A DNA stretch of 64,000 nucleotides from the NCBI RefSeq assembly GCF_004364315.1, contig NZ_SOBR01000001.1, positions 62,001 through 126,000 of the forward strand. Direction: 5' to 3'. The notes under the pieces are model-generated. The model ran no database searches. It was not told the DNA's origin and worked only from the letters and a program-made list of their open reading frames with translations. This document shows positions 26,558 through 45,982 of this stretch, one piece after another (the first letter of the stretch is position 1; the number at the start of each line of letters is the position of its first letter). The position numbers and the translations under genes are program-made. The DNA is from Chromohalobacter marismortui. GTDB lineage: Bacteria > Pseudomonadota > Gammaproteobacteria > Pseudomonadales > Halomonadaceae.

Positions 26558-26561
<4 letters not shown>

Positions 26562-27391
26562 GCGCTGCAGCGCCTGACAATACCGCGATCGGTGGCAGCG
26601 ACTGGGCATCGCTGAGCAGCCCCGAGCTGGCCCGGCGCGTAAACTCTGAGAGCGTGGCGTTGTTGCCGCTGGGGGCCATCGAACAGCATGGCGCGCACCT
26701 GCCGCTTTCCACCGACGTGGATATCGCCGAGGGCCTGGTCGCGGCGATGCGTGAACGTGTCGCGGTGTCGCGGGATTTGCTGATACTGCCCACGGTAACG
26801 GTGGGATCGAGCCTCGAGCATGGCGACTTTGCCGGTACCTTGAGCCTGACGCCGGAGACCGCCATCGCGCAGTTGGTGGATATCGGCGCCAGCGTGGCGC
26901 GTGCGGGGATCCGTCGCCTGGTGCTGTTCAATAGCCATGGCGGCAACAAGGCGGTGGTCGACCTGGCGGCACTCAAGTTACGCGAGCGCCATGGCCTGCT
27001 GGTGGTCAAGGCGAATTACTTTCGCTTCGCACCGCCCGACGACGCGTTGCCTGCCGAGGAATTGCGCCATGGGCTGCATGGCGGCGCGCTGGAAACCGCC
27101 ATGATGATGCATCTGGCGCCGCACAAGGTACGCCAGGCCGAACTCGGCGAGGCCGTCTCGTTAGGGGCTCACCAGGAGCGTGCCGGACGCACGCTGCTTC
27201 CCGAGAGCGATGCCGGCTTCGCCTGGATGGCGCAGGATCTGCATCCCAGCGGCGTGGTGGGCAACGCCACCCTGGCCACGCCGGCCCTGGGAGAACGGCT
27301 GGTCGCGCATTTCGCCGCGCGTCTGGCGCGCGTGATCGAGGAAGCCCATTGCTTCGATCTGGCCCAACTGCGCGAACGTTTGCCGCAGTGA
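26558..27391 (+). CDS. Creatininase-family metal-dependent amidohydrolase
   Basis: 277 aa. Metal-ligand motifs of the family are visible: the Glu and His of GAIEQHGAHLPLSTDVDIA (about residues 39-57), LEHGDFAGT, NSHGGNKAVV and LHGGALETAMM. Family members hydrolyse cyclic amides or formamides. They include creatininase, the archaeal riboflavin/F420 enzyme ArfB (FAPy deformylase) and mycofactocin MftE. Creatinine itself is an unlikely substrate. It is coupled to recD by ATGA with AGGAGG upstream, yet its 3' end faces the GTP cyclohydrolase II gene 13 bp away. It may therefore belong functionally to the pteridine block instead of recBCD. Confidence 0.88.
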
Positions 27392-27404: not shown

Positions 27405-28559
27405 TCATTCGAGCGAGCCCGATGTATCGCGGCGCGGGGCACGCCTGTCGCTGGCATCGGGGCTGTCGAGCAGGTCCTCCAGCCAGTGTCCGGCGCGTTC
27501 GGCCTTGGCGCTCAGGTAGCGTCGATTGTGCTCGTTGAGCTGACCGTAGCAGGCTTCGCGTCCCACCACGTCGATGCCGCCGAGGCTCATGGCGGCGATC
27601 TTCTCGGGATTGTTGGTCAACAGCGCGATGCGTGTGACGTCGAGCTCGGACAGCATCTGCAACGCTGCTCGATACTGCCGCTCGTCCTCGCCGAACCCCA
27701 GTACCTGATCGGCATCGACGGTATCCAGCCCGGCATCCTGTAGCCCATAGGCGCGCAGCTTGTTGGCCAGCCCGATGCCGCGTCCTTCCTGGGCGAGATA
27801 CAACAATATGCCGCCGCCACGTTCACTAATGGCCGCCACGCTGGTGCGCAATTGTTCGCCGCAATCGCAGCGCAGGCTAGCGAACAGATCGCCCGTCAGG
27901 CAGGCCGAATGCAGGCGCACCGGCACGGCATCCGCCCAGTCGGCGGCGTCGCCGACGAGTACTGCCAAGTGCTCGCGCAGGCCATCGCTTTCACGAAACA
28001 GCACGAAGCGGGCATGTTCGGCATCGGCGAGGGGAACGTCGGCTTCGCTGATACGTTTGAGCGAGGTCGTGTCGCCTTCGCCGTAGCGCTGTACATCGTC
28101 GAGCGTCACGGCGAGCAGGGTCCCGTCGTCGATGAGCGCAGCCAGCGCCTCGCGCCGGTTGGCATCGACCCGTGCGCTGAGCGCGGCGGGCACCAGCAGA
28201 CCGCGTCGCATCAAGCCCAATGCGGCCGTCTCCGCAGAGGACGCGGGTTCGGGCGCATGGGCGTTGGGGGCCTCGGCCATGGCGGCCATTGCCCAGGCGA
28301 CGACATCGCGAGCCCGGTGATGGCTGTCCAGAGGGAGACGTACTGCGTCGGCGTCAGCGGGGGCAAGCGTGCCGAGCCGGGCGAGGCGATGCGCGGTAAT
28401 GACCAGGCTGGGGGGCTGGCCGGCCATATCGGCGAGCGCCGCCAGAGCGCTGTCGTCGATGCCTTCCAGGGGCTGGACAAGGACATCGTCTTGTGGGGTG
28501 CGCAGCACGATCGGCAGGCTGCGGCGCAAGTCGAAGATCGCACGTTCTACCTGTCTCAT
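27405..28559 (-). CDS. GTP cyclohydrolase II homologue with non-DHBPS N-terminal domain
   Basis: 384 aa. The C-terminal half is a good GTP cyclohydrolase II. The zinc cysteines lie in HSACLTGDLFASLRCDCG, the catalytic Arg region in AQEGRGIGLANKLRAYGLQD, and the GTP-binding end in LLTNNPEKI. The N-terminal ~190 residues are not the DHBP synthase domain of RibBA and I do not recognise them. Expected reaction: GTP to 2,5-diamino-6-ribosylaminopyrimidinone 5'-phosphate. AGGAGAGG precedes the ATG. It is divergent from the RibD-type reductase gene (83 bp). The context suggests a dedicated copy for a special metabolite, not housekeeping riboflavin synthesis. Confidence 0.88.
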   Translation of the reverse strand: MRQVERAIFDLRRSLPIVLRTPQDDVLVQPLEGIDDSALAALADMAGQPPSLVITAHRLARLGTLAPADADAVRLPLDSHHRARDVVAWAMAAMAEAPNAHAPEPASSAETAALGLMRRGLLVPAALSARVDANRREALAALIDDGTLLAVTLDDVQRYGEGDTTSLKRISEADVPLADAEHARFVLFRESDGLREHLAVLVGDAADWADAVPVRLHSACLTGDLFASLRCDCGEQLRTSVAAISERGGGILLYLAQEGRGIGLANKLRAYGLQDAGLDTVDADQVLGFGEDERQYRAALQMLSELDVTRIALLTNNPEKIAAMSLGGIDVVGREACYGQLNEHNRRYLSAKAERAGHWLEDLLDSPDASDRRAPRRDTSGSLE

Positions 28560-28642
28560 GAGCCTCTCCTTGGTTTTTGCGCGTCGTAATGCTTCGATAA
28601 CGCGTCATGACACTTTCTTTGGCCCCCGGCACGGGAGACCGT

Positions 28643-29488
28643 ATGAGCTCTGCGACACTCGAGGCGGCGCTGGCCTGGCAAGGTATTCGCCAGGCCCGTT
28701 ACCAGGATTGGAGCGCCCACGCGGCGTTGACGCTGCTGGCCGGCCAGTTGCAAGTCTGGCGAGGCGGCGCCTGGCGGGCCAAGGGAACGGTCACGCCGGA
28801 AGCGGCGGCGCTGCTCGACCACCTGCTGCCGATCAGCGCCACGCCCGGGCGTTTCGTCATGGCGCAACTGGGGCAAAGCCTCGATGGACGTATCGCCACG
28901 ATCAGCGGCGCCTCGCACTATGTCACCGGCGAGGCGAGCCGCGTGCATTTGCATCGCCTGCGTGCGCTGGTCGATGCCGTGGTGGTAGGGGCCGGCACGG
29001 CCTGTGCCGACGATCCGCAACTCACCGTGCGTCATGCGCCGGGAGACAACCCGGTACGCGTGATCCTGGATCCCAACGGCCGCGTGCCCGCCACCAGCGG
29101 CGTACTCCAGCGCGGCGACGCCCCGACATTGCATATCACCCGACATCCCTTGCCACGCGCTGCTCTGGGCGCCCATGTCGAATCGCTGACGCCCGCCGGG
29201 GCGGTCGACCTGACACCGTCGGCACTGCTCGAGACCCTGGCGGCGCGGGGCCTGCGTCGCGTACTTGTCGAGGGCGGCGGACAGACCGTGTCGCGCTTTC
29301 TGGCGGATGGCCAGCTCGATCGCTTGCATGTGGTGGTGGCGCCGCTGTTGATCGGTTCGGGGCGCCCGGCGATAAGCCTGGCCGAGATCGAGACGCTCGA
29401 CGCCGCGCTGCGGCCGCCATGTCGCACCTTTGCGATGGGCGATGACACGCTGTTCGATCTGACGCTGCGTTCCGGTCACGCGGTGTAA
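28643..29488 (+). CDS. RibD C-terminal-type (RibD_C) reductase, no deaminase domain
   Basis: 281 aa from ATG 28643, which has GGGAG upstream; an ATG at 28607 lacks such a site. The reductase core is clear: QLGQSLDGRIA, VDAVVVGAGTACADDPQLTVR, RVILDPNGRVP, and RVLVEGGGQTVSRFL with LIGSGRPA. The zinc deaminase domain of bifunctional RibD is absent; about 75 unrelated residues precede the reductase. Alone, such an enzyme could reduce the ribosyl side chain of the GTP cyclohydrolase II product, as in the archaeal/fungal riboflavin order. It ends 25 bp from the convergent membrane-protein gene. Confidence 0.87.
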   Translation: MSSATLEAALAWQGIRQARYQDWSAHAALTLLAGQLQVWRGGAWRAKGTVTPEAAALLDHLLPISATPGRFVMAQLGQSLDGRIATISGASHYVTGEASRVHLHRLRALVDAVVVGAGTACADDPQLTVRHAPGDNPVRVILDPNGRVPATSGVLQRGDAPTLHITRHPLPRAALGAHVESLTPAGAVDLTPSALLETLAARGLRRVLVEGGGQTVSRFLADGQLDRLHVVVAPLLIGSGRPAISLAEIETLDAALRPPCRTFAMGDDTLFDLTLRSGHAV

Positions 29489-29513
29489 TGCATCATCATG
29501 CATAGCGGCCTCC

Positions 29514-30476
29514 TCAGCTTTCGCTCGTCAGCGGGGCGCCTGGGGGTGGGGTATCGCGGCCTCGGTGCGGTGGACGCCGGCGACACGCTAGCCAAGCGCC
29601 CGGCAGGCTCGAGGTCAACACGATCGCGCCATACACCAGCGAGATCGCCACGCCTTGGGCGGGATCGAGTCCGGCGCCCATCCACACCAGCGCCGCGGCG
29701 CTTTCGCGCAGTCCCCACCCGGCGACGGACAGCGGAATCGCCATGACCATCAGGACCGGTGGGATCAGGGGTAACAGGGTGTCCAGGGCGATATCCGCCT
29801 CGATGGCTCGGGCGGCGATGGCATAGACGGTGATGTAACTAGCCACCACCCCCAGGGAACTCAGGCATTGCCAGAACCACATGCGAGAGGCCACCAGGGC
29901 GGCGCCGAGATCGTCCAGCGTGTTACGCAGCCAGGCCGGCGGGCGGCGATGACACCAGATCCCGAGTCCGCCCAGCAGGAGGATGCCCGCCGTCAGTGCA
30001 GTGGGTGCATTGACCAGATGGACCAGGCCATCGAATACGCTGTCGCGCAGGGCCGGCGAGGCCAGTAACGCCGCGATGGCAATCATTGCCAGCATCAGTT
30101 GGCCGGAGAGGCGTTCGATGATGACGGCGCGCCATGCCCGTGGCCGGTCGCTGCTCGACCGGGCATGGCGCCAGGCGCGCGAGGCGTCGCCCATCACCCC
30201 ACCCGGCAGTACCTGATTGAGAAAGGTAGCCGCGTAGTATTCCGCCACGGCGCGCCGCAACGGTAGGACTAGGCCCATGCGCTGGGCGGTCAGCCGCCAG
30301 CGCCAGGCGGAGAGCACCACTTGAGGCACGCTGAGGGCCAATGCCAGCAACAGCCAGCCCGGTGCGGGGGCGACGATAGCGTCCCGCAACGCCCGTGCGT
30401 CGAGGTGCCAGGCAAGCCCCCCGATCAGTACCAGGCTGACGCCCAGGCGCAGCAGCATGACGTTAGCGCGGGTCAT
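29514..30476 (-). CDS. UPF0104 / lysylphosphatidylglycerol-synthase-TM-like membrane protein
   Basis: 320 aa from ATG 30476, overlapping the methyltransferase gene by 14 bp. Six to eight hydrophobic segments are visible. The conserved ATFLNQVLPGGVMGDASRAWRH and RLSGQ fit the transmembrane domain found in MprF and in UPF0104/YbhN proteins, and AIPLSVAGWGLRES near the end is also typical. Such domains flip lipids or act in lipid-linked pathways at the inner membrane. There is no aminoacyl transferase domain, so lysinylation is excluded. Last gene of the minus-strand run beginning at 33815. Confidence 0.8.
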   Translation of the reverse strand: MTRANVMLLRLGVSLVLIGGLAWHLDARALRDAIVAPAPGWLLLALALSVPQVVLSAWRWRLTAQRMGLVLPLRRAVAEYYAATFLNQVLPGGVMGDASRAWRHARSSSDRPRAWRAVIIERLSGQLMLAMIAIAALLASPALRDSVFDGLVHLVNAPTALTAGILLLGGLGIWCHRRPPAWLRNTLDDLGAALVASRMWFWQCLSSLGVVASYITVYAIAARAIEADIALDTLLPLIPPVLMVMAIPLSVAGWGLRESAAALVWMGAGLDPAQGVAISLVYGAIVLTSSLPGAWLACRRRPPHRGRDTPPPGAPLTSES

Positions 30477-31329
30477 GGTCCGGCTCCGGTGCGGCGAACA
30501 CGTCGCGGTGCCCGACGTACAGATCGACGTGGCCCTGGTCCAGCGCTTTGCGACGACGGTGCCACCAACGGTCGATGCGCCGGCGTGCTTGCGGCGCTTG
30601 TTCGCGCGCGGCGCCGGCCCAGCCATCGATAAGGCTCAGCGCCAGGGGACGCTGAGCCGGCGTCAGGCGCCAGGGGCTTTCAGCATCGCTGAGGTGAAAT
30701 CCCCTGACGGTGAAGGCATCGATCAATGCCTGGGGGGCCGTGGTGCCCAACGCGGGGCCGAAGCCCTTGTCGCGGCGCTGATGCGCGGCAAGGATCTCGA
30801 AGAGCCAGACATCTTCGGCATCATTGACCACTACATCATCGGCCTGGAAACGAATGTTGCCGTCCACGCTGAGCGTGATCAGTGCCGCGGCGCGGTGAGC
30901 CGTGCAGGCGTCGGCCAGGGTCTCGACCCAGGCGGCGCTGACCAGGTCGCACAGTGCCGAGGCAGTGACGAGATCGATATCGGCCAACCATGAGCTCTCG
31001 AGCGCATGCAGGTCGTGTTGATACGTGGTCACCTGGATGGGCATGCTCGTGGGATCGCGCAAGGGCTGACAGCGTCCTACGGCATGGCTGAGCAAAGCAT
31101 CGTCATGATCGACCAGGTGCCAGTGCTGGAGACCGGGCAAGCGTGGTGCGAGATAACGGACATTGGCGCCGCTACCGCAGCCGAGATCGAGTAGTTGCCA
31201 GGGGGCACGATCTCCGCCCGGGGCAAGCCAGTCAATGGCGGCTTGCAAGGGCGCCGTGGCGCGGGCGTCGTGGTCGGCCTGCTCGCGTCGCGTCAGCCAG
31301 GCGTCGCTGAACGAACCGGCGGCGTTCAT
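30463..31329 (-). CDS. Class I SAM-dependent methyltransferase
   Basis: 288 aa from ATG 31329, which overlaps the glycosyltransferase stop (ATGA); a longer Arg-rich upstream extension in the same frame is not credible as protein. Motif I LLDLGCGSGANVRYL lies near residue 45, followed by HLVDHDD as the acidic loop. DLVTASALCDLVSAAW forms motif II. The C-terminal ~40 residues are Arg-rich. Substrate unknown; context suggests methylation of the cluster product. Methyltransferases acting on GTP-cyclohydrolase-derived rings are known, for example in toxoflavin biosynthesis. Confidence 0.85.
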   Translation of the reverse strand: MNAAGSFSDAWLTRREQADHDARATAPLQAAIDWLAPGGDRAPWQLLDLGCGSGANVRYLAPRLPGLQHWHLVDHDDALLSHAVGRCQPLRDPTSMPIQVTTYQHDLHALESSWLADIDLVTASALCDLVSAAWVETLADACTAHRAAALITLSVDGNIRFQADDVVVNDAEDVWLFEILAAHQRRDKGFGPALGTTAPQALIDAFTVRGFHLSDAESPWRLTPAQRPLALSLIDGWAGAAREQAPQARRRIDRWWHRRRKALDQGHVDLYVGHRDVFAAPEPDHDPR

Positions 31330-32375
31330 GCGGCACCTCGCTGCAAGGCGGCGGCGAAGGCCGCGCCGACCTGCGACCAGTCGCGCAGCGAGGCGCGTGC
31401 GCGCTCGGCGCCGTCGCGCCATCTGCGACGTTCATGCGAGTCATCGAGCATCTCGCGCAGGGCAGCGGCGAGTGCAGCGGCATCGCCGGGGGGCACCTTG
31501 AGGCCGGCATCATCGGGCAGGGTATGGGCGAGCGCGCCGCCGTTGGTAGTGACCACGGGCAGGGCATGCGCCAGGGCCTCGCTGACGACCATGCCATAGC
31601 CTTCGTAATGCGAGGGCAGTACGAAGATGTCGCTGTCGTGGTAGGCCTCGTCCAAGGCATCGGCGGGTCGCTCGCCGAGCAAGTGGATACGTGCTTCGAG
31701 CCCGTGGGCGGCGATACGTGACTGGACGTGCGATACATGCGCCGGTGCACGCTCCAGGCCGCCGATGCAGTCGCATGTCCAGGGCAGATCGGTCAGCGTG
31801 GCCAGCGCCTCGACGAGCACATCATGCCCCTTGCGCGGCGTGACCGTGGCCACGCACAGCAGGCGTGGCACCTCAGCGTTGCCACGTGCCGGTGAGGCGC
31901 GCATCACGCCGGGTTCGACCACCTGCAAGCGCTCCGCAGTTACCTGGAAATCCGCCAAACGCCGAGCGGTGAAGGGGCTGGTGACGATGACGTCGCGTAC
32001 CGCCGACAGCGCCCGGGTTTCGCTGATCGTGAAGCGCTGGCGTTCGGCATCGCCGAGGCCGGTTTCATCGGCGAGCGGATGGTGAACCAGGGCAGTGAGC
32101 GTCAATCGCTGGGCATGGGCTTCCAGCACGTCGGGCAAGCCGCCCATCGCGAGTCCGTCGAGGATGACATGAGCACCCGCGGGCTGCGCCGCCAAGGCGT
32201 TTTCAAGTGCCTGTCTCGCCGTCATGTCGGGTTCGGGAAAACGTCCCTCGAGACCGATGACCTCCACGGGCCAACCGTGTTCGCGGAGGGCCGAGACGAC
32301 GCGCGCATCGTAGACATAGCCACCGGTCAATTGCGCGGGATCACCGGCGACGATCAGGGTGACCGGATGACTCAT
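31326..32375 (-). CDS. GT4-family glycosyltransferase
   Basis: 349 aa, GT-B fold. N-terminal [19 protein letters not shown] is the acceptor-side glycine loop. In the C-terminal half [16 protein letters not shown] and [23 protein letters not shown] show the EX7E nucleotide-sugar site typical of GT4. Donor and acceptor cannot be read from sequence. GT-B pteridine glucosyltransferases such as cyanobacterial PgtA/BGluT are known, so a pterin acceptor is conceivable given the PTPS-like gene directly upstream. Overlaps its neighbours by 4 bp on both sides. Confidence 0.87.
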
Positions 32376-32770
32376 AGCGCACCTTCGTACTTCGCCCAGG
32401 CGATATGCGACTCATGCAGCGTGACGTCGAGCGCCGTCAGGCCATGCCCCGTCTCGCCGAGCTCGCCTTGGCGGATCGCGTGGGCGAGCCGCTCGAAAAC
32501 CACCTTGGCCATGAACTCGGTGGTGGTGTTACGCCCCTGGAATTCGGGCACGTCGTCGAGGTTGTTGAAATTGAGTTCGCTCAGAACGCGGGACAGTGTC
32601 TGGCTGGCCAGGCCGATATCGACGATGAGGTCGTCGTGATCGAGTTCAGGGCGCTTGAAGGCGACATCGACCACATAGGTAGCGCCGTGCAAGCGCTGTG
32701 CAGGGCCGAAGATCTCGCCATTGAAGCTATGCGCGATCATGAAATGGTCTCTAACCGTCAGACTGAACAT
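32372..32770 (-). CDS. 6-pyruvoyl-tetrahydropterin synthase / QueD homologue with altered active site
   Basis: 132 aa from the ATG at 32770. Fold-level matches to QueD are clear: FMIAHSF near residue 10, RLHGATY near 26-32, [25 protein letters not shown] and [11 protein letters not shown]. By hand alignment to E. coli QueD, His16 and His31 are kept (His14, His28) and Glu110 is kept. His33, a zinc ligand, is Ala30, the catalytic Cys27 is Ala, and the Asp70-His71 pair is Asn-Phe. Normal CPH4 or PTP synthase activity is therefore doubtful. It is co-transcribed with the glycosyltransferase (ATGA overlap). Confidence 0.85.
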
Positions 32771-32837
32771 CCGTGTGACTCCTTTTGCGTGTGACATGTT
32801 ATGCGTGTGGCATGGGCGCCGCCGGGTGACGGCAGCG

Positions 32838-33815
32838 TCACGAATAGCGTATGCGATGACAGAGTGCCGGGCGATCCGTGTCGCTCAGTCGTGCCAGGAC
32901 GGTGGGTAGATCAAGGAAGTCGCTTTCGCCGTCGATCAAGGCGTCGAGCCGCGCGTCGCGCAGTAGCGTCAGGGCCAGTTGTAGACGCTGCGCATGGCTG
33001 CGTCGCGCGCGTCTTGCCGGCGAGACACCGCCGACCTGGCTGGCACGCAGCGTCAGCCGCCGCGAGTGAAAGGCCTCGCCGAGAGGCAATGTGACCTCGT
33101 CGCGTCCGAACCAGCTCAGTTCGATGATCTCCGCTTCGTAGCCGGCCAGTGCCAAGGCGTTTCGCAAACCGTGAGGGTTGCCGCTGGCATTGATCACGAT
33201 GTCCTGTTCGTCCTCGGCATCGTGCGGGTGCCGAAAGGGCAAGCCTAGTGCGGCGGCGAGTTCGGCTTTTCGGGTATCGAGGTCGAGCAACTGCACGCGC
33301 ACGCCGGCCGTTTGTTGGCATAACCAGGCGACCAGACTGCCGACGACGCCGGCACCGACGACGCTGATCCGATCGCCGACGCGTGGTGCGGCGTCCCACA
33401 AAGCGTTGACGGCGGTTTCCATGTTGGCTGCGAGGACCGCGCGTGCGGCGGGGAGGTTGTCGGGGAGCGGGACCACGGCCTCGATGGGGACGGTGTAGCG
33501 TGTCTGATGCGGGTAGAGGCAGAAGACCTCGCGGCCGCACCAATCGTCCGGTCCCTCCTCGACCACGCCGACATTGGCATAGCCATATTTGACCGGCCCG
33601 GGAAAGTCTCCTTCCTGAAAAGGGGCGCGCATACGGGTGTATTCGCTGTCCGGAATCTTGCCTTGGAATACCAGGCTTTCGGTGCCGCGGCTGATGGCGC
33701 TGTAGCGCGTCCTGATCAACAGTTCATGCGCATGGCGACGGGGCAAGGCTTGCGTTCTTATCTCGCCTCGCCCCGGTGCCTGTATCCAAAAAGCCTGTGA
33801 GTTCGCTGCGTGCAT
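32838..33815 (-). CDS. Medium-chain dehydrogenase (MDR), zinc-ligand-poor, BchC-like
   Basis: 325 aa. The N-terminal catalytic domain contains [18 protein letters not shown] and [19 protein letters not shown]; the Rossmann motif [15 protein letters not shown] follows near residue 149 and [12 protein letters not shown] near 171. The usual catalytic Cys and the four structural Cys of zinc MDRs are absent. The SRGTE segment recalls BchC-type enzymes (bacteriochlorophyllide hydroxyethyl dehydrogenase). It should oxidise or reduce a side-chain alcohol with NAD(P). AAGGAGGTG precedes the ATG. First gene of the minus-strand operon and nearest to the putative LitR site. Confidence 0.83.
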
Positions 33816-33861
33816 GGCACACCTCCTTGCGTATCTTGAGTATCGTCCATGACATCGTTCA

Positions 33862-33896
33862 TGTACAGGTATTGTACATATAATTGTTTGTGTATC
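33862..33896. promoter_or_regulatory. TGTACA repeats; putative LitR/MerR-type operator over a -10 box
   Basis: In an AT-rich divergent promoter region, TGTACA occurs at 33862-33867 and 33873-33878. The second copy is followed by 12 bases and TGTATC (33891-33896). A perfect plus-strand TATAAT lies inside the spacer (33879-33884), and TACAAT on the minus strand is a -10 candidate for the dehydrogenase operon. The arrangement TGTACA-N12-TGTA(C/T)A is what I recall as the class II LitR (PplR1) operator of Pseudomonas putida. No litR gene lies in this window. Confidence 0.55.
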
Positions 33897-33995
33897 ATTT
33901 TATTACAAATATCGCGTGCTATCAGCGCAGTGAAAAGCGCACCGTTCATTGATCCTCTGCCATAGTTAAATGCAGACGTTTGGGAGAATAAGGTC

Positions 33996-34748
33996 ATGCG
34001 TGACACACCACGCGATGTCACCCCTCGCAGAGCAACGTGGGTACATGGGTTGCCGGCGGTACTCGAACTGCTGCTGGGTTTGTGTCTGACCGGATTGCTG
34101 GTTGAAACCCTGCAGTGGCACCTGGCGGCACCGCGAGGGCTTGGCTGGTCGGTGGGGGGTGTCTACCTGGGCATGGCATTGATCATCCTTTGGGCATGGC
34201 CGGCGGCGCGGCGCTGGCTGGGATGGGCTAATCGCGTCACCCTGCTGCGTGCCGTGTTGATCGCACTGCTGGCCGGCAGCATGGCGTTCCCGGCATTCAT
34301 GGAGCGGCACGTTTTCGAGATGACATGGGTCGCATTATTGGCGCTGTGCCTGGACGGCATCGATGGTTGGGTGGCGCGTCACACGCATTCCGCTAGCGAC
34401 TTCGGTGCGCGTTTCGATATGGAGCTGGACGCATTTTTCATTATGGTGCTGTGCTGCGCGCTCATCGTGCTCGACAAGCTCGGCGGATGGGTGCTGGTGG
34501 TGGGCGCCCTGCGTTACACCTTCGTGGCGGCGGGGCATGCATGGCCATGGTTGCGGCGAGAGTTGCCCTCGAGTCTGCGCCGCAAGGCGGTCTGCGTATG
34601 GCAGGTCGTCAGTCTGCTGGTGGCACTGCTGCCCTGGGTGCCGTCTTTCTGGGCGGCGCTTTGTGTCGGCGTGGCGCTGGCGTTGCTGATCTATTCCTTC
34701 GCGCGCGACGTCGTCTGGTTGTATCGTCATCGTCGCATGCGTGTCTGA
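33996..34748 (+). CDS. CDP-alcohol phosphatidyltransferase family membrane protein
   Basis: 250 aa with about six hydrophobic segments. The CDP-alcohol phosphotransferase signature DG-X2-AR-X8-G-X3-D-X3-D is complete, beginning at DGWVAR (about residue 124) and ending at the Asp of DMELD. Such enzymes transfer a phosphatidyl or other CDP-linked group to an alcohol in the inner membrane. The alcohol here is not recognisable. It is divergent from the pteridine-type operon and shares its promoter region. A lipid step in the same pathway is possible, together with the UPF0104-type protein. GGGAG lies upstream of the ATG. Confidence 0.87.
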   Translation: MRDTPRDVTPRRATWVHGLPAVLELLLGLCLTGLLVETLQWHLAAPRGLGWSVGGVYLGMALIILWAWPAARRWLGWANRVTLLRAVLIALLAGSMAFPAFMERHVFEMTWVALLALCLDGIDGWVARHTHSASDFGARFDMELDAFFIMVLCCALIVLDKLGGWVLVVGALRYTFVAAGHAWPWLRRELPSSLRRKAVCVWQVVSLLVALLPWVPSFWAALCVGVALALLIYSFARDVVWLYRHRRMRV

Positions 34749-34779: not shown

Positions 34780-35592
34780 TCAGTGAGGCTCTTCCAGGTG
34801 GCTCAAGTGGTTGATGAACTGCGTGAAGATTTCTGCCTGGGTAGAGGTATTCAGCCGCGCATGGATGTTCTTGCGATGCACCTTGACCGTGCCGACGCTG
34901 ATTTTCAGGTGGTCGGCAATCGCCTGGGACGAAAAGCCGCGCAGTATGAGCTCGGTGATTTCCCGCTCACGCTGCGTCAGCACGCCACTGGCAAAGGTAC
35001 GCAGAGCACGCTTCATGGGGCCATCGGAGCGGCCATATTGCAGGAACTCATCGGACTGGGTCTGCCAGAACTGGCGCATGAGTGCGCTGATGATTGGATG
35101 AAATTCTTGTAGGGTATTGAGCTCGGTGCGCGAAATGCTTTCCAGCGAGGCTTTTCGTCCGAGCGTGATGGCGCAGGTCACTTCGTCATCGAGGCCAATC
35201 AACAGGTTGATTTCATCCACCAGGCCGAAGTTCTGGTAGCAGGTCTGATAGTACTCGGTGCTTTTGAAGGAATCCGGCATGATGTCGGCCAGTCGCACGA
35301 TGCCGGGGGAGGCAGTGTCCTTGATGGCGTGGAAAAGCGGGTCGAGTACATAGGCATGATTGATGTACTGACGCAAGGTATCGCTCTGCTCCGCCGGATC
35401 GGAAGGATGGACGAGAATCGGCCGCAGCGATTTCTTGTAGGTCAGTAGCAGAATCGTGTCGAAGCAACACAGGGTCGACAGGAAAGTCTCCAACATCACC
35501 GGGAAACTGCGCAATCGCTGATGCTCGATGAGCACGGCCAGGTTTTTCTGCCAACTCTCATTGGTCTGTATCTGATTGACGCGATCTCTCAT
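34780..35592 (-). CDS. LuxR-family transcriptional regulator (paralogue 1)
   Basis: 270 aa. The C-terminal LuxR/NarL-type helix-turn-helix spans about residues 205-260: LTQREREITELILRGFSSQAIADHL then VGTVKVHRKNIHARL. The N-terminal ~190 residues form a sensor domain (FDTILLLTYKK, LDPLFHAIKD, YYQTCYQNFGLVDEINLLI) that is clearly similar to that of the second LuxR gene at 45144-45971. No receiver phosphorylation site is visible. It is divergent from the first glutamine-synthetase-like gene, suggesting control of putrescine catabolism by a polyamine-related signal; the ligand is inferred. Confidence 0.85.
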   Translation of the reverse strand: MRDRVNQIQTNESWQKNLAVLIEHQRLRSFPVMLETFLSTLCCFDTILLLTYKKSLRPILVHPSDPAEQSDTLRQYINHAYVLDPLFHAIKDTASPGIVRLADIMPDSFKSTEYYQTCYQNFGLVDEINLLIGLDDEVTCAITLGRKASLESISRTELNTLQEFHPIISALMRQFWQTQSDEFLQYGRSDGPMKRALRTFASGVLTQREREITELILRGFSSQAIADHLKISVGTVKVHRKNIHARLNTSTQAEIFTQFINHLSHLEEPH

Positions 35593-35818
35593 CGCTTGTC
35601 CTTGCTTCTTGTATGCGGCCGAAAGGGCGCTATCAGGGATTCCCCAAGGCTAAGCCAGATGCTGGGCCGGTACCAGTCCGTCTTGCTTCGGGTGCCAATG
35701 CGGTGCGTACTCGTCCCTCTTCTCAGTGCTCGGATACCCCCGGAGTGATAGATACACCACTCTCTGGATGGGATACCTTGAGGTTCTGGTTTTCGAAAAG
35801 CATTCAAGAGTCATGCGT

Positions 35819-37168
35819 ATGACGACGGATAACAAACAGGATAAGAACCGCGAGCTGGATCTCTTCATCACGGACTTGAACGGGAATTTACGCGGCAAGC
35901 GCCTGCCCGCCAGCGGTTTGGGCAAGGTCCTCAAGGAAGGCCTCAAGCTGCCACGTTCGGTGATGGGCTTTGATTTCTGGGGCGCCGATGTGCTCGACAA
36001 TGGCCTGGTGTTCGAAACCGGTGATAGTGATGGCGTGTGCATGCCCATCACGAATGAGCCGATCTCGGTGCCCTGGTCGACGGCGCCTCGTGATCAGATG
36101 CTGGCGATGATGTTCAATCCCGATGGCACGCCCTTCGAGGCCGATCCACGCCAGGTTCTCAAGCGCATGGTGGATCGCTTTGCCGAAAAAGGGCTGACGC
36201 CGGTGATGGCCACCGAGCTCGAGTTCTATCTGATGGATGCCGAATCGGAAAGGACGCAGCGGCCGGTGCCACCGTCACTGGTGGATGGCAAAGGACGTCG
36301 TCTCGCCAATGCGGAAGGGTATTCCGTGGAGGAAATGGATGGCTTCGAGGCGTTGTTTACCGATATCCGTGCGGCTTGCCAGGCACAGGGGATCGGTGCG
36401 GATACCATTATTGCCGAGATGGGCCCGGGGCAGTTCGAGGTCAATCTCGACCATGTGGCCGATCCGCTGAATGCGGGCGATCAGGCGATCCTTTTCAAAC
36501 GCCTCATACGCGGTGTTTCCCGTGACCATGGCTATTCGGCGACCTTCATGGCCAAGCCTTATGTTGAAGAAAGCGGCAACGGCTTTCACACGCATTTCAG
36601 CCTGCTCGACCGCGACGGTCACAATGTGTTCGATGACGGCACCGAGCAGGGCAGTGATCTGCTGCGCCACGCCATCGCCGGGATGATGCAGCTGATGCCG
36701 GAGAGCATGCTGGTGTTCGCGCCGCATCTGAATTCCTATCGTCGCTTCATGCCGGGCGCGCATGCCCCGACGCATGCCAGCTGGGGCTACGAGAACCGGA
36801 CGGTGGCCTTGCGCGTGCCGGAGAGCCCCCACCTGGCGCGCCGTATCGAACACCGGGTGGCGGGGGCCGATGCCAACCCATATCTGGTATTGGCATCCCT
36901 TCTCGCCGGTGCGCTGCATGGCATGGAAAACGCACTCGAGCCGGAGGCGCCGGTGGAAGGTGATGCCTACGCCGAAGAAAGCCCCCGCTATCCACTGCCT
37001 TGCGAGTGGCAGGATGCGATCGCTCGCTTCGAGCAGAGCGAGACGCTGAGGGAATACCTGGGCGAAGAATTCGTGCGTGTCTACGCGCACGCCAAGCGCC
37101 AGGAGCGCCGCCGGCTGAACGAGCGCATCTCCGATGTTGAATATGAGGCCTATCTGGGATTGCTCTGA
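35819..37168 (+). CDS. puuA: Glutamine-synthetase-like gamma-glutamylpolyamine synthetase (PuuA family, copy 1)
   Basis: 449 aa from ATG 35819, which has AAGAG eight bases upstream; an ATG six bases earlier is less well placed. GS catalytic motifs: ATELEFYLMD, EMGPGQFEVNL, GNGFHTHFSLLD, NSYRRFMPGAHAP and the Arg/Glu of NRTVALRVP and RIEHRVAGADANPYL. It would ligate glutamate to putrescine or a related amine with ATP, the first step of the Puu/Pau pathway. It is followed 52 bp downstream by a GATase gene and is divergent from LuxR paralogue 1. It differs from the copy at 45983, so the two may prefer different amines. Confidence 0.87.
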   Translation: MTTDNKQDKNRELDLFITDLNGNLRGKRLPASGLGKVLKEGLKLPRSVMGFDFWGADVLDNGLVFETGDSDGVCMPITNEPISVPWSTAPRDQMLAMMFNPDGTPFEADPRQVLKRMVDRFAEKGLTPVMATELEFYLMDAESERTQRPVPPSLVDGKGRRLANAEGYSVEEMDGFEALFTDIRAACQAQGIGADTIIAEMGPGQFEVNLDHVADPLNAGDQAILFKRLIRGVSRDHGYSATFMAKPYVEESGNGFHTHFSLLDRDGHNVFDDGTEQGSDLLRHAIAGMMQLMPESMLVFAPHLNSYRRFMPGAHAPTHASWGYENRTVALRVPESPHLARRIEHRVAGADANPYLVLASLLAGALHGMENALEPEAPVEGDAYAEESPRYPLPCEWQDAIARFEQSETLREYLGEEFVRVYAHAKRQERRRLNERISDVEYEAYLGLL

Positions 37169-37220
37169 TCCCGGCCAGGCCTGAAAAATTCACGGCGCGG
37201 CCGTGAGCGAGGAATCCGTC

Positions 37221-37952
37221 ATGACACTGAAGATCGGCATACTGGCCACCGGCACGACGCCGGACAATCTGATCGACCAGTATGGTTCCTACGCCGACAT
37301 GTTCGTTCGTCTGTTCGAACAGGCCGGCTATGGCTTTACCTTCACGACCTACGATGTGCGCGACGACGCCTTTCCCGAGTCAGCCGATGTCTGTGATGCC
37401 TGGATCATCACCGGCTCGAAGTTCAGCGTCTGCGACAAGTCGCCATGGATGGCACGGTTGAAAGACCTGATTCTCGACATCTATGACACCGGCGGCCCGA
37501 TCGTGGGCATTTGCTTCGGCCACCAGATCGTGGCGGAAGCCTTCGGCGCCGACGTCGATCGGTATCCGCAAGGCTGGGGCGTGGGGCTGCATACCTACCG
37601 ACTGGAGAAAAGCGTCGCGGAGCTGAGCGCCCTGGATGGCCGATTCACGCTGAATGCCGTGCATCAGGATCAGGTGCTGAGCAAACCGGAGCAGGCTGAC
37701 GTCATTGCCTCTTCGTCGTTCTGTCCGTTTGCGGCCCTCCAGTACGACGATCGCATCCTGACTCTGCAGGCGCATCCAGAGTTCGACGTGGCGTTCGAAA
37801 CGCGGCTGCTTCAGTCACGTCGTGACGCCCCGATTCCGTCGACGGCGACCGATCCGGCGCTGGTCGCGCTCGACGAGGCGTCGGCGCAGACGGACTCGTT
37901 GCAAATCGCCCACTGGATGGCCGAGTTCCTGCAGCAGGGTCGACGTCGTTGA
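37221..37952 (+). CDS. Type 1 glutamine amidotransferase
   Basis: 243 aa from ATG 37221 with GAGGA upstream; an in-frame GTG at 37203 is less likely. The class I triad is visible: Cys in VGICFGHQIVAEAFG (about residue 96) and His-Glu in LQAHPEFD (about 180). The ICFGHQ form is that of GuaA-like or YfeJ-type GATases, not the ICRGxQ form of PuuD. Placed directly after a PuuA-type ligase, it may do the PuuD job of releasing glutamate from gamma-glutamyl-GABA, or act on another gamma-glutamyl amine. No dedicated PuuD homologue is seen elsewhere in the island. Confidence 0.82.
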   Translation: MTLKIGILATGTTPDNLIDQYGSYADMFVRLFEQAGYGFTFTTYDVRDDAFPESADVCDAWIITGSKFSVCDKSPWMARLKDLILDIYDTGGPIVGICFGHQIVAEAFGADVDRYPQGWGVGLHTYRLEKSVAELSALDGRFTLNAVHQDQVLSKPEQADVIASSSFCPFAALQYDDRILTLQAHPEFDVAFETRLLQSRRDAPIPSTATDPALVALDEASAQTDSLQIAHWMAEFLQQGRRR

Positions 37953-38068
37953 ACGTGCCCACACGTTGTCTGAACGCCCGGCTTGCCCATGCAGCGCTTG
38001 ACGCGACCATCCGGGATCGAGCGGGCCATGTCGCGATAGCCCGATGATCCCGAAGGCCCATGCAACGC

Positions 38069-39181
38069 TCAGACACGCGGCTGCTGCTGGGTGATGCAGT
38101 GGATGTTGCCGCCGCCGAGCAGGATCTCGCGGGCATCGACGGCGACCACCCGGCGGTCTGGAAACAGGTTCTCGAGAATGGCGTGTGCCTCGTCGTCATG
38201 TGCCGGGTCGAGCCGGGGCATCACCACCACCGAGTTGCCGATGTAGAAATTGACGTAGGAGGCGGCCATGCGGTCGCCCGGTTGCCGGGGGCGCGAACTG
38301 CTCAGCCGGTCGACGCCGCTGGCTTCGGTCTCGGCGATGGTCAGCGGACCGGGCATCGGTAGCTTGTGCACGGTAAGCCGCCGTCCCCTGGCATCGGTGG
38401 CCGCCTCGAGAATCCCCAGGGCCTCGCGGGAGATGGCATGTTGCGGATCGCCATCGTCATCGGTCCAGGTCAGCGCCACTTCGCCGGGGGCGACGAAACA
38501 GCACAGGTTGTCGACGTGGCCGTCGGTCTCGTCCTGGAAACAGCCCCGCGGCAGCCAGATGATCTTTTCGACACCCAGGTAGGCGCGCAACAGCCATTCG
38601 ATCTCGGACTTGTCGAGATCGGGGTTGCGATTGGGGTTGAGCAGGCACTCCTCGGTGGTGATCAGGGTCCCCTCGCCATCGACGTGGATGGCGCCCCCTT
38701 CGACCACCAGCGGGGTGATGAAGCGTTCGATACCGAGGACTTCGGCGATCTTCTGGCGGATGCGGCGGTCCTTGTCCCAGGGAAAGTAGAGCCCACCGTT
38801 GAGTCCGCCCCAGGCGTTGAATTCCCAGTCCACCATGGCCAGGCGACCATCCGGATGGGTCAGGAAGGTCGGCCCGACATCACGCATCCAGGCATCGTTG
38901 CTGGAAAGCTCGATCACTCGGATGTGGCTCGGCAACTGGTTGCGGGCGTTCTCGTACTGGTCGTCGTTGACGCCGACGAATACCGTCTCGCTCTCGGCGA
39001 TGGCCCGGGCCACGGCGACGAACGCCGCCTGGGCCGGCTTGGCGCCATAGCGCCAGTTGTCGGGACGCTGCGGCCAGAGCATCCAGCAGGCGTCGTGCGG
39101 GGCGAACTCGGCAGGCATGGAAAAACCGAACTCGGCCGGGGTGGCGGTGCGACGCGCCGTCGCGATGTCTGTGTCGTTCAT
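38069..39181 (-). CDS. aguA: Agmatine deiminase
   Basis: 370 aa from ATG 39181 (GAGG upstream); an in-frame TTG four codons earlier is less likely. Family motifs: ACWMLWPQRPDNWR, SSNDAWMRDVGPTF, VDWEFNAWGG, LVVEGGAIHVDGEGT, DETDGHVDN, and the catalytic Cys in LLGGGNIHCITQQ (about residue 361). It converts agmatine to N-carbamoylputrescine and ammonia. It lies 8 bp after an NhaC-family carrier gene and faces the GATase gene convergently. AguB of the nitrilase family, the usual next enzyme, is absent here. Confidence 0.96.
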   Translation of the reverse strand: MNDTDIATARRTATPAEFGFSMPAEFAPHDACWMLWPQRPDNWRYGAKPAQAAFVAVARAIAESETVFVGVNDDQYENARNQLPSHIRVIELSSNDAWMRDVGPTFLTHPDGRLAMVDWEFNAWGGLNGGLYFPWDKDRRIRQKIAEVLGIERFITPLVVEGGAIHVDGEGTLITTEECLLNPNRNPDLDKSEIEWLLRAYLGVEKIIWLPRGCFQDETDGHVDNLCCFVAPGEVALTWTDDDGDPQHAISREALGILEAATDARGRRLTVHKLPMPGPLTIAETEASGVDRLSSSRPRQPGDRMAASYVNFYIGNSVVVMPRLDPAHDDEAHAILENLFPDRRVVAVDAREILLGGGNIHCITQQQPRV

Positions 39182-39189
39182 GACGAACC

Positions 39190-40536
39190 TCAAAGATAAC
39201 CTGCGGCCAGAAATACCAGCGTGGCCAGGAAAGCGGCAAGAAGTGCATAGGGAAGCTGGGTCAGGGCATGAGCCATGGGCGTGCAGCCGCTACCCTGGGC
39301 CGACAGCACGGTCGAATCGCCGTAGAAACAGGCGTGGCTGCCGAAGGCGCTGGCCGAGATCAATGCGCCGATCACCAGCGGCATCTCGGCGTTGACGCTG
39401 CTCGCCAGCGGCAGCACGATCGGCATGGCCACGGCGAACAGCCCCCAGAACGAGCCGGTGGCGAAGGCCAGGAACGCCATGGTGACGAAGCTCACTGCCG
39501 GCAACAACTGAGCCGTCATCAGCGGTTGCAGCGTCTGGATCACGTATTCGGTGAGTCCCAGTCCGTCGTTGACTTCCTTGAGCGTGAAGCCGGCGACCAG
39601 CGTGCCCAACGGCATGAGCATCGACTTGAAGCCATCGAGTGCGGTATCGAAGGTGGCGTGAAAGCTCATCAGGCGCTGGCTGAAGATCAGTATCAGGGTC
39701 ACGGCCAGGGCCACGATCACGCCGCGCAGTATGTCGATATCGAAATACCAGGTGAAGAAGATCAGGCTGGCAATGGGCAGCAGGAAGTTGAGCAGATGCG
39801 GGCGGCGCTGGCCTTTGTCCTCGGTCTCCAGGGCGTTTTCCTCGGCGCCGTCGGGCATTACCTGGCCGCCGCTGGCACGCCGTTCGGCCGTTTTCATGGG
39901 CCCGATGGCGGGAATCCAGCCCATCGCGACCAGCGGGACCACCGCGGCGGCGATCCAGGCATAGAACATGTAGGGGATCGATTCGATGTACAACCCCATG
40001 CCGTTGCCGGCCACGTCGTTGTCCTCGAGCAGCCCGGCGAAGAACACCGCCCAGGTGGAGAAGGGGACCAGGATGCAGATCGGCGCGGCGGTGGAGTCGA
40101 CGATGTAGGCGAGCATCTCCCGCGAGACCTTGAAGCGGTCGGTGATCTTCTTCATCGAAGCGCTGATCGCCAGGGCATTGAGATAGTCGTCGACGAAGAT
40201 GGCCAGACCGAGGAGCCAGGTGGTCAGCAGTCCCTGGCGCCGGCCGTGGATGCGACGCGTCATGACGTCGCCGAAGGTCAGCACGCCACCGGTACGCACC
40301 AGTAGCGCGATCAGGCTGCCGAACAGCCCGCAGACCAGGATGATCCAGGTCACGGTGCCGTTGCCGAGCACCGTGAGCAGCGTGTCGGAAGCCTGGGTCA
40401 CCACACTTGTCGGATCGATCATCAACATGCCGACCAGGGCGCCGGTCATCAGCGACTCGATGGTGCGGCGGGTGACGATGGCCATGATCAGCACGATCAG
40501 GGTGGGAAACAGGCTCCAGAGTCCGTAAGTCTCCAT
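39190..40536 (-). CDS. NhaC-family Na+/H+ antiporter-like transporter
   Basis: 448 aa with ten or more hydrophobic segments. Typical NhaC-family stretches are VDDYLNALAISASMKKITDRF, VPFSTWAVFFAG, FTLKEVNDGLGLTEYV and SASAFGSHACFYGDSTVLS. A charged cytoplasmic loop occurs around residues 215-245. The family includes Na+/H+ antiporters and amino-acid or amine exchangers. Co-transcription with agmatine deiminase suggests agmatine uptake or agmatine/putrescine exchange, but the sequence alone does not show the substrate. Confidence 0.85.
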   Translation of the reverse strand: METYGLWSLFPTLIVLIMAIVTRRTIESLMTGALVGMLMIDPTSVVTQASDTLLTVLGNGTVTWIILVCGLFGSLIALLVRTGGVLTFGDVMTRRIHGRRQGLLTTWLLGLAIFVDDYLNALAISASMKKITDRFKVSREMLAYIVDSTAAPICILVPFSTWAVFFAGLLEDNDVAGNGMGLYIESIPYMFYAWIAAAVVPLVAMGWIPAIGPMKTAERRASGGQVMPDGAEENALETEDKGQRRPHLLNFLLPIASLIFFTWYFDIDILRGVIVALAVTLILIFSQRLMSFHATFDTALDGFKSMLMPLGTLVAGFTLKEVNDGLGLTEYVIQTLQPLMTAQLLPAVSFVTMAFLAFATGSFWGLFAVAMPIVLPLASSVNAEMPLVIGALISASAFGSHACFYGDSTVLSAQGSGCTPMAHALTQLPYALLAAFLATLVFLAAGYL

Positions 40537-40583
40537 GTGATCCTCTTTTGTGATTGTTGGTTCAACGCATGAGGGGGAGGTTT

Positions 40584-40607
40584 GAAGGGCCGTGATAGCG
40601 GCCCTTC
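40584..40607. terminator. Stem-loop between spuC-type gene and NhaC-type gene
   Basis: A perfect 9-bp stem GAAGGGCCG / CGGCCCTTC with loop TGATAG lies 5 bp after the transaminase stop. Neither strand has a following T run; it may attenuate read-through into the transporter gene or protect the 3' end. Confidence 0.5.
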
Positions 40608-40612
40608 ATCGG

Positions 40613-42010
40613 TCACAGGTAGCCATCAGCGCGGAGTGTTGCGGTGGTCTTCGTCAGCGCCGCATCGAGGATCTCCACCACGCGGTCGACGGTGTCCCGC
40701 GTCCAGATCAGCGGTGGCGAGACGATGTTGAGATGGCCCACCGGGCGAATGATCAGACCAAGCTGCTGAGCCTCGAAGGCGACTCTGTCGCCCACCCGTG
40801 CCTCCACCGGGAAGAGCGCCTTGGTCTGCTTGTCGGCGACGTTCTCGAGACACATCATGAAATGGCCGCCGCGCACATCGCCCACCGTGGCGTGATGCGA
40901 CAACGATGCCAGGCGTTCCTCGAGGTAGGGGCCCACCGCGCGGACGTTTTCGCAGATCCCCTCGCGCTCGATGATCTCGATGTTCTTGAGTGCCGCCGCG
41001 CAACTGACCGGATGCCCGGAATAGGTAAAGCCGGTGCTCAGCACGCCGCCCGGTCCCTGCGGCGTGGACAGCACGTCGTAGAGTGCGTCGGAGATCAGCG
41101 TCGCGCCCAGCGGTGCATAGCCGGAAGACAGTCCCTTGGCGCAGTTGATGATATCGGGCTGGGTCTCGTACACCGCCTCGGAGGCGAAGAAGTGCCCCAG
41201 GCGACCGAAACCGGTCACCACCTCGTCGGCGATGTACAGGATGTCGTTGGCGCGACACACCGCCTGCATGCGCTTGTGATAGTCCCTCGGTGCCACCAGC
41301 ACGCCGCCGGCGCCCATGATCGGCTCGGCGATGAAGGCGGCGATGTTGTCGGCGCCGATCTCGGCGACGGTGTCCTCGAACTCCCGAACCAGGTGGTCGC
41401 AGTAGTCGGCTTCGGTCATCCCCTCGGGACGTCGGTAGCAGTTGGCCTCGCTGAGATGGGTGACCAGGTGATCGAGGGTATCGAAGTCCCAGTTGTTGCT
41501 GGCGATGCCGGTCAGGGTAGAGGCGAGATAGGTGGTGCCGTGGTAGGCGTTGTTGCGTGAAATGATGCGCTTCTTGGCCGGTTGGCCGAGGCGGTTGAAG
41601 TAGTAATGCACCAGGCGGATGGTGGCGTCGTTGGCCGTCGAGCCGCCGCAGCTGTAGAAGACGTGGTTGAGGTGCGCGGGGGCGAGTTCGGCCAGCCTGG
41701 CGGAAAGCTCGGCGGCCGGGGCATTGGACAGGTTGTTGAAGGTCGAGAAGTAGGCCATGCGCGTGGCCTGCTCGGCCATGGCTTGGCCGATCTCGGCGCG
41801 GCCGTGCCCGACGTTGACGCACCACAGCCCGGCGATGCCGTCGATGAAGCGATTGCCCTTGGCATCCTGGACGTAGATGCCGTCGCTGTCGGTGATCAGG
41901 TCGCAGCCTTCCTCATGAAAGGTGCTGAAGTCGGTGAAGGGGTGGATGAAGTGATCCTTGTCTTTCTGCCACAGCGCTTGGGCATCCTGAGTACGGGTCT
42001 CGGTGTTCAT
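40613..42010 (-). CDS. spuC: Class III polyamine:pyruvate-type aminotransferase (SpuC-like)
   Basis: 465 aa from ATG 42010 (GAGGCGAG upstream). PLP fold-type I class III motifs: GIAGLWCVNVGHGR, the PLP-ring contact YSCGGSTAND, the Asp in ILYIADEVVTGFGRLG, and the Schiff-base Lys in INCAKGLSSGYAPLG. Closest in character to SpuC/PatA-type enzymes that transaminate putrescine (or related diamines) to 4-aminobutyraldehyde with pyruvate. It is transcribed divergently from the M20 carbamoylase-puuC pair across 191 bp. A beta-alanine:pyruvate type activity cannot be excluded. Confidence 0.87.
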   Translation of the reverse strand: MNTETRTQDAQALWQKDKDHFIHPFTDFSTFHEEGCDLITDSDGIYVQDAKGNRFIDGIAGLWCVNVGHGRAEIGQAMAEQATRMAYFSTFNNLSNAPAAELSARLAELAPAHLNHVFYSCGGSTANDATIRLVHYYFNRLGQPAKKRIISRNNAYHGTTYLASTLTGIASNNWDFDTLDHLVTHLSEANCYRRPEGMTEADYCDHLVREFEDTVAEIGADNIAAFIAEPIMGAGGVLVAPRDYHKRMQAVCRANDILYIADEVVTGFGRLGHFFASEAVYETQPDIINCAKGLSSGYAPLGATLISDALYDVLSTPQGPGGVLSTGFTYSGHPVSCAAALKNIEIIEREGICENVRAVGPYLEERLASLSHHATVGDVRGGHFMMCLENVADKQTKALFPVEARVGDRVAFEAQQLGLIIRPVGHLNIVSPPLIWTRDTVDRVVEILDAALTKTTATLRADGYL

Positions 42011-42110
42011 GATCTCGCCTCGCACGTTGCAAGCGGTCAGTGCCGCGATGAGTCGTCGTGATACGTCGTTGCGTTCGCAACGAGACTAGCGAGGAAGGGG
42101 TGGGCGGGAA

Positions 42111-42130: not shown

Positions 42131-42201
42131 TCGCAACGCCCCGGGAGCCGCCTAATGTGTTCCATGACCCAACTACCTGACAAGCACAAAGGGGAGACTT
42201 C

Positions 42202-45971: not shown

Positions 45972-45982
45972 GACAAAATAGC

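Follow-up and report, generated by a model that had tools for sequence, protein, structure and literature searches.

The window analysed here, a stretch of 64,000 nucleotides (64% G+C) from the 3.55 Mb genome of Chromohalobacter marismortui (contig NZ_SOBR01000001.1, C1:62001-126000), raises the question of what is made by a set of nine genes that sits between recCBD and a polyamine region. The set encodes a creatininase-family amidohydrolase, a GTP cyclohydrolase II (GCHII), a stand-alone RibD_C reductase, a UPF0104 membrane protein, a class I S-adenosylmethionine (SAM) methyltransferase (MT), a GT4 glycosyltransferase, a PTPS/COG0720 homologue, a zinc-free MDR dehydrogenase and a CDP-alcohol phosphatidyltransferase (CDP-OH). 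It is a conserved pathway and apparently an undescribed one, no description of the gene set having been found in a literature search limited to open-licence papers. We tentatively read it as a cluster dedicated to making a pterin-type (2-amino-4-oxo) glycoconjugate from GTP. All eight families named in the initial annotation are present; the RibD-type reductase lies on the plus strand, and the creatininase-family gene (26558-27391) had been left out.

Conservation carries the case for a single pathway. A gene was scored as present when its hidden Markov model (HMM) exceeded 60 bits inside the fetched stretch; the locus sets are related by descent and their counts are not independent, and the 112 loci L034-L145 contain two duplicate pairs (L034/L066 and L037/L109). 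A search of 194 genomes of the order with the MDR protein returned, besides the genome itself, 16 close relatives (about 56-66% identity) and six distant ones (about 32-36%); follow-up was confined to matches stronger than E 1e-11. PTPS adjoins MDR in all 22 fetched neighbourhoods, in two gene orders. Within the limits of their contigs and gene content, the close relatives mostly retain the window gene order, with L038 as an exception, while in the six distant ones GT4-MT diverge from GCHII-RibD_C-MDR-PTPS, followed by CDP-OH. The association has thus withstood rearrangement. In L055 a UPF0104 match was confirmed, and the same neighbour group spans L050-L055.

The set extends well beyond the order. 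Two peptide patterns applied to a one-genome-per-species collection located the PTPS member in at least 580 confirmed places of at least 596 stretches. The best 80 of these at least 580, which lean to close relatives and whose genus labels were typed from record titles, include Halomonadaceae, Marinobacter, Chromatiaceae, Thauera, Variovorax, Xenophilus and Rhodospirillales, together with metagenome-assembled genomes of Acidobacteria and members of Streptomyces, Amycolatopsis, Nocardiopsis and Actinoplanes. A plasmid collection yielded 28 PTPS records, among them Rhizobium, Agrobacterium, Methylosinus, Streptomyces and Microbacterium and the archaeal Haloarcula and Haladaptatus. Of ten of these 28 records that were inspected, the nine annotated ones carry MDR, PTPS and MT together in 9/9 cases (MT as "hypothetical" in two) and GT4 in 8/9; in the tenth the profiles matched MDR, PTPS and GT4, and MT was not found. 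Among the 66 of the 80 named loci that are longer than 19 kb, MDR, PTPS and MT are each found in 66 and GT4 in 65, followed by CDP-OH (59), UPF0104 (53), creatininase (47), RibD_C (44) and GCHII (43). The same-strand order MDR-PTPS-GT4-MT is kept in 78 of the 80 named loci.

In 26 of the 112 fetched loci a single stop-free frame holds both GT4 and MT. This joint frame of about 650-710 codons occurs in Vreelandella, Marinobacter and some Halomonas (L043-L049, L073-L077, L079, L080, L083-L085, L087, L089, L090, L093, L098, L104 and L113), with further cases in Streptomyces (L145) and Rhodovulum (L088, at a contig end), and it likely represents a fusion protein in the first three genera.

A partly independent view was obtained from MDR itself, using a profile built from 19 cluster members that had been found via PTPS. 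Across 398 Pseudomonadota genomes it matched 27 at E <=1e-40, in 20 of 213 genera, and PTPS adjoins MDR in all 26 of these genomes besides the window's own (17 newly fetched, nine earlier). The 17 newly fetched loci, hereafter the second set, contain GT4 in 16, MT in 15, RibD_C in 14, GCHII in eight and cytochrome b561 in seven cases, and more rarely CDP-OH (3), creatininase (3), a sulfatase-like gene (2) and UPF0104 (2). A second, weaker MDR match in one genome (L208) has no partner genes. These counts reduce the common core to MDR-PTPS-GT4-MT, usually joined by RibD_C, and the membrane part depends on lineage. The initial annotation proposed a single dedicated pathway and named scattering of the genes in related genomes as what would speak against it; the genes instead stay linked, and conservation in Pseudomonadota, Actinomycetota and Acidobacteria metagenome-assembled genomes, with the core in Halobacteria, strongly supports the proposal. 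It also looked to photolyases and light receptors as companions, and none was noticed among the recurrent neighbours listed, which were judged by eye with no photolyase search.

The GCHII gene (27405..28559, minus strand; PF00925, E 1.8e-53) departs from the riboflavin enzyme in both halves. Its N-terminal domain, formerly called unknown, is a degenerate RibB fold, and this half of the cluster copies carries the DRENE motif in 0 of 17 cases. In the catalytic half of the window protein Ala stands in place of both E53 and R90 (E. coli numbering), with the zinc cysteines, Y105 and R128 retained; all three zinc cysteines are kept in the cluster copies generally. Among 62 cluster GCHII (the window and L034-L145), 55 are altered and seven canonical, six of the latter from distant gammaproteobacteria and one from Actinoplanes. 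The altered copies from proteobacteria and acidobacteria are substituted at E53 and R90; those from actinobacteria have Met or His in place of Y105. Over all 62, position 105 is Met in 18 (all actinobacterial), His in two and Ile in one. The second-set GCHII are altered in 8/8 (position 53 is Ala, 90 is Ala, Asp or Asn, and 105 is Tyr).

The best-scoring housekeeping copies that aligned show none of these changes. The best-scoring RibA copies of Halomonadaceae are canonical in 30 of 30 aligned (from 41 genomes), and those of 16 cluster-bearing actinobacteria in 16 of 16 (one per genome), which gives E, R and Y in 46/46 aligned controls; the GCHII half of the window genome's own RibBA (L003) failed to align and lies outside this count. 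Further actinobacterial GCHII copies examined comprised the cluster copies and L242, which is canonical. In a FastTree phylogeny of 106 GCHII sequences, midpoint-rooted, with supports not inspected and some copies entered twice, the altered proteobacterial and actinobacterial copies fall in separate parts, the latter beside actinobacterial RibBA. Judged by its altered site and missing RibB motif, the window GCHII appears to lie outside the canonical riboflavin type. The earlier concern that it might be the only copy in the genome and serve riboflavin is answered by a separate canonical RibA and the riboflavin genes.

The alteration of GCHII is accompanied by the creatininase-family amidohydrolase, a proposed formamidase (26558..27391, plus strand; PF02633, E 4.5e-68), which is the only PF02633 match in the genome at E 0.001. 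In the main set, 52 of the 55 altered GCHII have a creatininase gene in the locus and none of the seven canonical ones does. These counts are the same after duplicate loci are dropped, no GCHII row being duplicated, and the three exceptions are L040, whose contig ends in GCHII, and the rhizobial plasmids L059 and L064. Likewise, among the 66 named loci longer than 19 kb, creatininase is present in 43/43 with cluster GCHII and in 4/23 of those without. At the level of whole genomes, PF02633 was found in 11 of 12 with an altered cluster GCHII (the window's own, G130, G155, G073, G596 and seven of the second set), in one of six with a canonical cluster GCHII (G040) and in one of six without cluster GCHII (G036). 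Residues E42, H44, D53, H127 and E179 are each kept in at least 93% of 58 rows, a pattern that we take to be the metal ligands of the creatininase family.

By its family and these presumed ligands the protein resembles ArfB and BrbF; it differs in scoring 28.1 bits against the ArfB equivalog cut-off of 180, no BrbF model was among its NCBIfam matches, and the best NCBIfam match of the window protein and seven cluster relatives is MftE, below cut-off. Proteobacterial and actinobacterial creatininase-family proteins of the cluster share about 30% identity. In archaea, ring opening and deformylation are carried out by two enzymes. The co-occurrence of altered GCHII and creatininase suggests, with exceptions, that the two reactions are divided here in the same way, and such a split is the simplest account of it. 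FAPy, the product of GTP ring opening, is the substrate of BrbF, a proven formamidase from the creatininase family, and Rhizobiales are described in the same source as rich in chromosomal BrbF (PMC9478397). BrbF and ArfB belong to the riboflavin pathway, whereas the window gene sits in a non-riboflavin cluster.

The PTPS homologue (32372..32797, minus strand; PF01242, E 4.1e-25) lacks the catalytic Cys and has HGA in place of HGH. Its closest named match, among the matches listed, is from Chromohalobacter sp. 11-W (95% identity), and its closest solved chain is SCO6650 (3d7j, E 2.1e-54), an uncharacterised protein. When 113 cluster members were aligned to E. coli QueD, the first and second zinc His were each found in 113, the third was Ala in 105 and kept in eight (distant and archaeal forms), the catalytic Cys was present in none, Asp70 in four and His71 in none, and the ring-binding Glu110 was kept in all 113. 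With the duplicate loci removed, Glu stands at 111/111 and Cys at 0, the other counts being unchanged. The motifs CxxxHGH (PTPS-I), CxxxxxHGH and ExxHGH were each found in 0/113; these published motifs, the latter two for PTPS-II and PTPS-III, come from section 5 of PMC5041015, which also calls the function of PTPS-V unclear. Thus, within the COG0720 groups PTPS-I to PTPS-VI, the cluster protein shares the family, the first two zinc His and the ring-binding Glu, but not the motifs of PTPS-I, II or III, and it scores 44.3 bits against the QueD model TIGR03367 (cut-off 89.25). Another PTPS-type protein in the genome (G000:C3:220506-221255, L211) occupies a 333-residue stop-to-stop frame with two PTPS matches, and may be a tandem QueD; it adjoins queE- and queC-like frames, judged by eye, and for that reason the cluster PTPS is probably not the genome's QueD.

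The remaining members were assigned by family. The RibD_C gene (28607..29488, plus strand) has PF01872 as its sole Pfam match (E 5.9e-42, residues 82-263), with no deaminase domain, and its best solved chain is 6p8c, a 2,5-diamino-6-ribosylamino-4(3H)-pyrimidinone 5'-phosphate reductase. The integral membrane protein UPF0104/LPG_synthase_TM, flippase-like (29514..30476, minus; PF03706, E 2.6e-37), whose start was picked by us within a longer frame, is followed by MT (30463..31329, minus; PF13649, E 3.5e-7) and GT4 (31326..32375, minus; PF00534, E 1.3e-31). The zinc-free MDR dehydrogenase (32838..33815, minus) bears the BchC-like motif SRGTE and reaches 44.1 bits with the BchC model TIGR01202, below its cut-off of 291.25. 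In a structure search its matches lay within 2 Z units of one another, the fold being common to many alcohol dehydrogenases, and the likeness to polyol dehydrogenases is weak. CDP-OH (33996..34748, plus; PF01066, E 3.2e-17) has an intact motif, with D120, D123, G124, A127, R128, G137, D141 and D145 each kept in at least 93% of 99 aligned rows. Among the scanned cluster genes there was no match to the RibD deaminase domain, RibH or RibE, and none to GTP cyclohydrolase I (folE), a search confined to these genes.

Several neighbours were considered as members and set aside. The minus-strand frame 28556-29503 has no family, and RibD_C occupies the plus strand there. The LuxR gene (34780-35592) and the glutamine synthetase gene (35726-37168) are not listed in any of the 22 relatives' neighbourhoods, and recD is listed near the set in 3/22. 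Elsewhere in the window, a single minus-strand run (11176-16984) contains bioA, bioD, a bioH-like gene, a bioF-like aminotransferase gene and a BATS radical SAM protein (bioB); within it, frame 13160-14035 has no Pfam family match. The polyamine region (35726-54106) contains two glutamine-synthetase-type ligases, a class I GATase, agmatine deiminase, a PuuC-like dehydrogenase, PotD/PotC/PotB-like proteins and two AmaA-like oxidases.

These families can be arranged into a pathway. The initial annotation supposed that GTP is opened and its ribose then reduced, which fits the families found. To judge from those families, the cluster GCHII would open GTP and its altered site would leave the formyl group on (FAPy/AFRPP), a creatininase-family enzyme encoded alongside or elsewhere in the genome would strip it off, and RibD_C would turn the ribose into a ribityl chain; the guanine-type 2-amino group would stay, because no deaminase is present. 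More speculatively, the zinc-free MDR would oxidise the ribityl 2'-OH to a ketone, giving a 1'-deoxy-2'-pentulose that would close with the 5-amino group to dihydroneopterin phosphate. GTP cyclohydrolase I reaches the same 1'-deoxy-2'-pentulose through an Amadori rearrangement, and closure to dihydroneopterin phosphate would therefore be expected from the ketone as well. The PTPS homologue, equally speculatively, would bind the 2-amino-4-oxo ring through its invariant Glu without the residues for PTPS or QueD chemistry, and may steer closure, epimerisation or side-chain processing. As the families imply, GT4 would then add a sugar and MT would methylate it. Finally, CDP-OH and UPF0104 might fix the product to the membrane, flip it across or make use of it there, a role that in other genomes could fall to an OpgH-like glucosyltransferase, cytochrome b561 or a membrane sulfatase-like protein. 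Linkage or export at the membrane had been suggested at the outset, and recurrent membrane genes support it, though these genes vary between lineages.

Several observations weigh against this pathway. The window GCHII has Tyr105 and not the Met of SCO6655, and that E53A/R90A would stall the reaction at the formyl stage is for the window type a deduction from sequence. In the second set, creatininase lies in the locus for only one of eight altered GCHII (L207); six of the other seven genomes carry PF02633 elsewhere and G544 has none, while G040, with a canonical GCHII, also carries such a gene elsewhere. Creatininase-family genes are common in bacteria, which makes presence elsewhere in a genome weak support, and the Fisher values for the co-occurrence (5e-13 and 2.4e-7) overstate significance, the loci being related. 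Of the 66 named loci longer than 19 kb, 23 lack GCHII and 22 lack RibD_C, and the scarcity of CDP-OH (3/17) and UPF0104 (2/17) in the second set means that a lipid step is not universal. Oxidation at 2' seems redundant with GTP cyclohydrolase I, and the pterin-type product is a prediction, with no product, activity or mutant known.

What, then, could the genes make instead? Ordinary duplicates of riboflavin and queuosine housekeeping genes, adjacent by chance, would agree with public automatic annotation, which labels set members 6-carboxytetrahydropterin synthase and GTP cyclohydrolase II RibA; linkage conserved across phyla, the loss of the PTPS-I/II/III motifs and the separate PTPS-type and RibA copies in the genome make this hardly credible. 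The riboflavin-type character of GCHII and RibD_C could also mean that the ribityl pyrimidine goes to lumazine synthase and that the cluster tailors a secreted flavin glycoside. Such a route is improbable, given the missing deaminase domain, the RibB-like half with DRENE in 0/17, the absence of RibH/RibE matches among the cluster genes and the separate canonical RibA. Alternatively, the second ring may never be made, and the polyol chain of a ribitylamino-pyrimidine would be glycosylated, methylated and joined by CDP-OH to a lipid phosphate. No ring-forming enzyme is certain in the set, CDP-OH occurs in 59 of the 66 loci, and polyols and their phosphates are substrates of the CDP-OH family; yet the most constant genes, PTPS and MDR (66/66 each), would be left with no role, and CDP-OH is found in only three of the 17 second-set loci, so that we consider this quite unlikely.

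The recurrent neighbours raise a further alternative, namely that the core product is a glycan or glycolipid decoration of the envelope, akin to osmoregulated periplasmic glucans, in which case the PTPS fold and MDR would have left pterin chemistry and GCHII/RibD_C would be a side branch. The gene opgG occurs in 23 and opgH in 19 of the 112 loci, and a membrane sulfatase-like gene in 22 of the 112 and 2/17 of the second set (for example L114:5899-8040, minus strand, and 21 further loci). The name of the latter was taken from public records; the representatives L114 and L059 match no Pfam-A family at 0.001. An OpgH-like GT2 glucosyltransferase gene is directly divergent from MDR in eight of 35 alpha/beta-type loci (L203:9312-11429, L058:6085-7887, L193, L197, L199, L201, L202 and L204) and merely nearby in two more (L038 and L117); the divergent gene also occurs in genomes without an opgG match (G238, G271 and G503). 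Seven genomes were checked, and in all of them this is a distinct paralogue: six copies are 45-77% identical to the seventh and four opgG-adjacent copies of the same genomes are 35-38% identical to it. Against such a glycan stand the opgG copies of the window genome, which lie more than 100 kb off or on another contig, the lack of any opgG/opgH match in named actinobacterial loci, and the ring-binding Glu kept in 113/113 PTPS; on balance it is unlikely. Cytochrome b561 is nearby in six of the 112 loci and seven of the 17 in the second set (L056:11534-12091, PF01292; L059:12011-12544; L064:12026-12565; L050-L052, L193, L197, L198 and L201-L204) and is a possible electron partner of the cluster product; the seven second-set loci have no CDP-OH or UPF0104 match. 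The recurrence of sulfatase-like, b561 and OpgH-like neighbours suggests that the product is located in the envelope.

The pterin-type glycoconjugate reading, which we continue to prefer, bears on a region already known in part from Streptomyces coelicolor, SCO6650-SCO6655, whose PTPS homologue SCO6650 is the solved chain 3d7j. The Streptomyces order PTPS-GT4-MT-UPF0104-creatininase-GCHII is kept in all 15 of the named loci with all six genes (16 loci in total), and it fits the numbers SCO6650 to SCO6655, a match made from gene order. SCO6655 reportedly releases FAPy through Met120 replacing Tyr (Spoonamore, Bandarian and co-workers, Biochemistry 2006), and presumably it is the Tyr105 position that decides between FAPy and APy in this enzyme; the window copy differs in having Tyr there and other changes instead. 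SCO6655 is listed as a GTP cyclohydrolase II whose expression is anticorrelated with predicted flux in S. coelicolor, with a table note that most such genes rise in stationary phase (PMC2853524), and for SCO6652, which gene order identifies as the methyltransferase, a comparison of mycelial stages gives the values 0.8, 4.3 and 4.1, column heads unseen (PMC3610822). The expression of the two genes may fit a product of differentiated cells. The nearest known compounds differ in their gene sets. Cyanobacterial pterin glycosides (BGluT, cyanopterin) are glycosylated, methylated pterins that start from GTP cyclohydrolase I. The toxoflavin genes have GCHII, RibD and a methyltransferase in common with the cluster and, to our knowledge and short of a gene-by-gene comparison, include no PTPS, GT4, MDR or CDP-OH.

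In its fullest form the proposal would be a dihydropterin route independent of GTP cyclohydrolase I, with the GCHII reaction split at least twice, and would supply bacteria and haloarchaea with methylated pterin glycoconjugates of a new class, an envelope redox cofactor with b561 as membrane partner; taken as a whole, this is a bold and unlikely conjecture. The wider significance of the gene set lies in its spread, as hundreds of species carry the PTPS member (at least 580 places in a one-genome-per-species collection) and 27 of the 398 Pseudomonadota genomes have MDR. The set provides a setting for a PTPS-type family that public records label 6-carboxytetrahydropterin synthase despite its missing Cys, HGH and Asp-His residues, and it offers a reason for GCHII keeping a creatininase-family enzyme alongside. 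It also opens two testable questions, the identity of the compound and whether dihydropterins can be made without GTP cyclohydrolase I.

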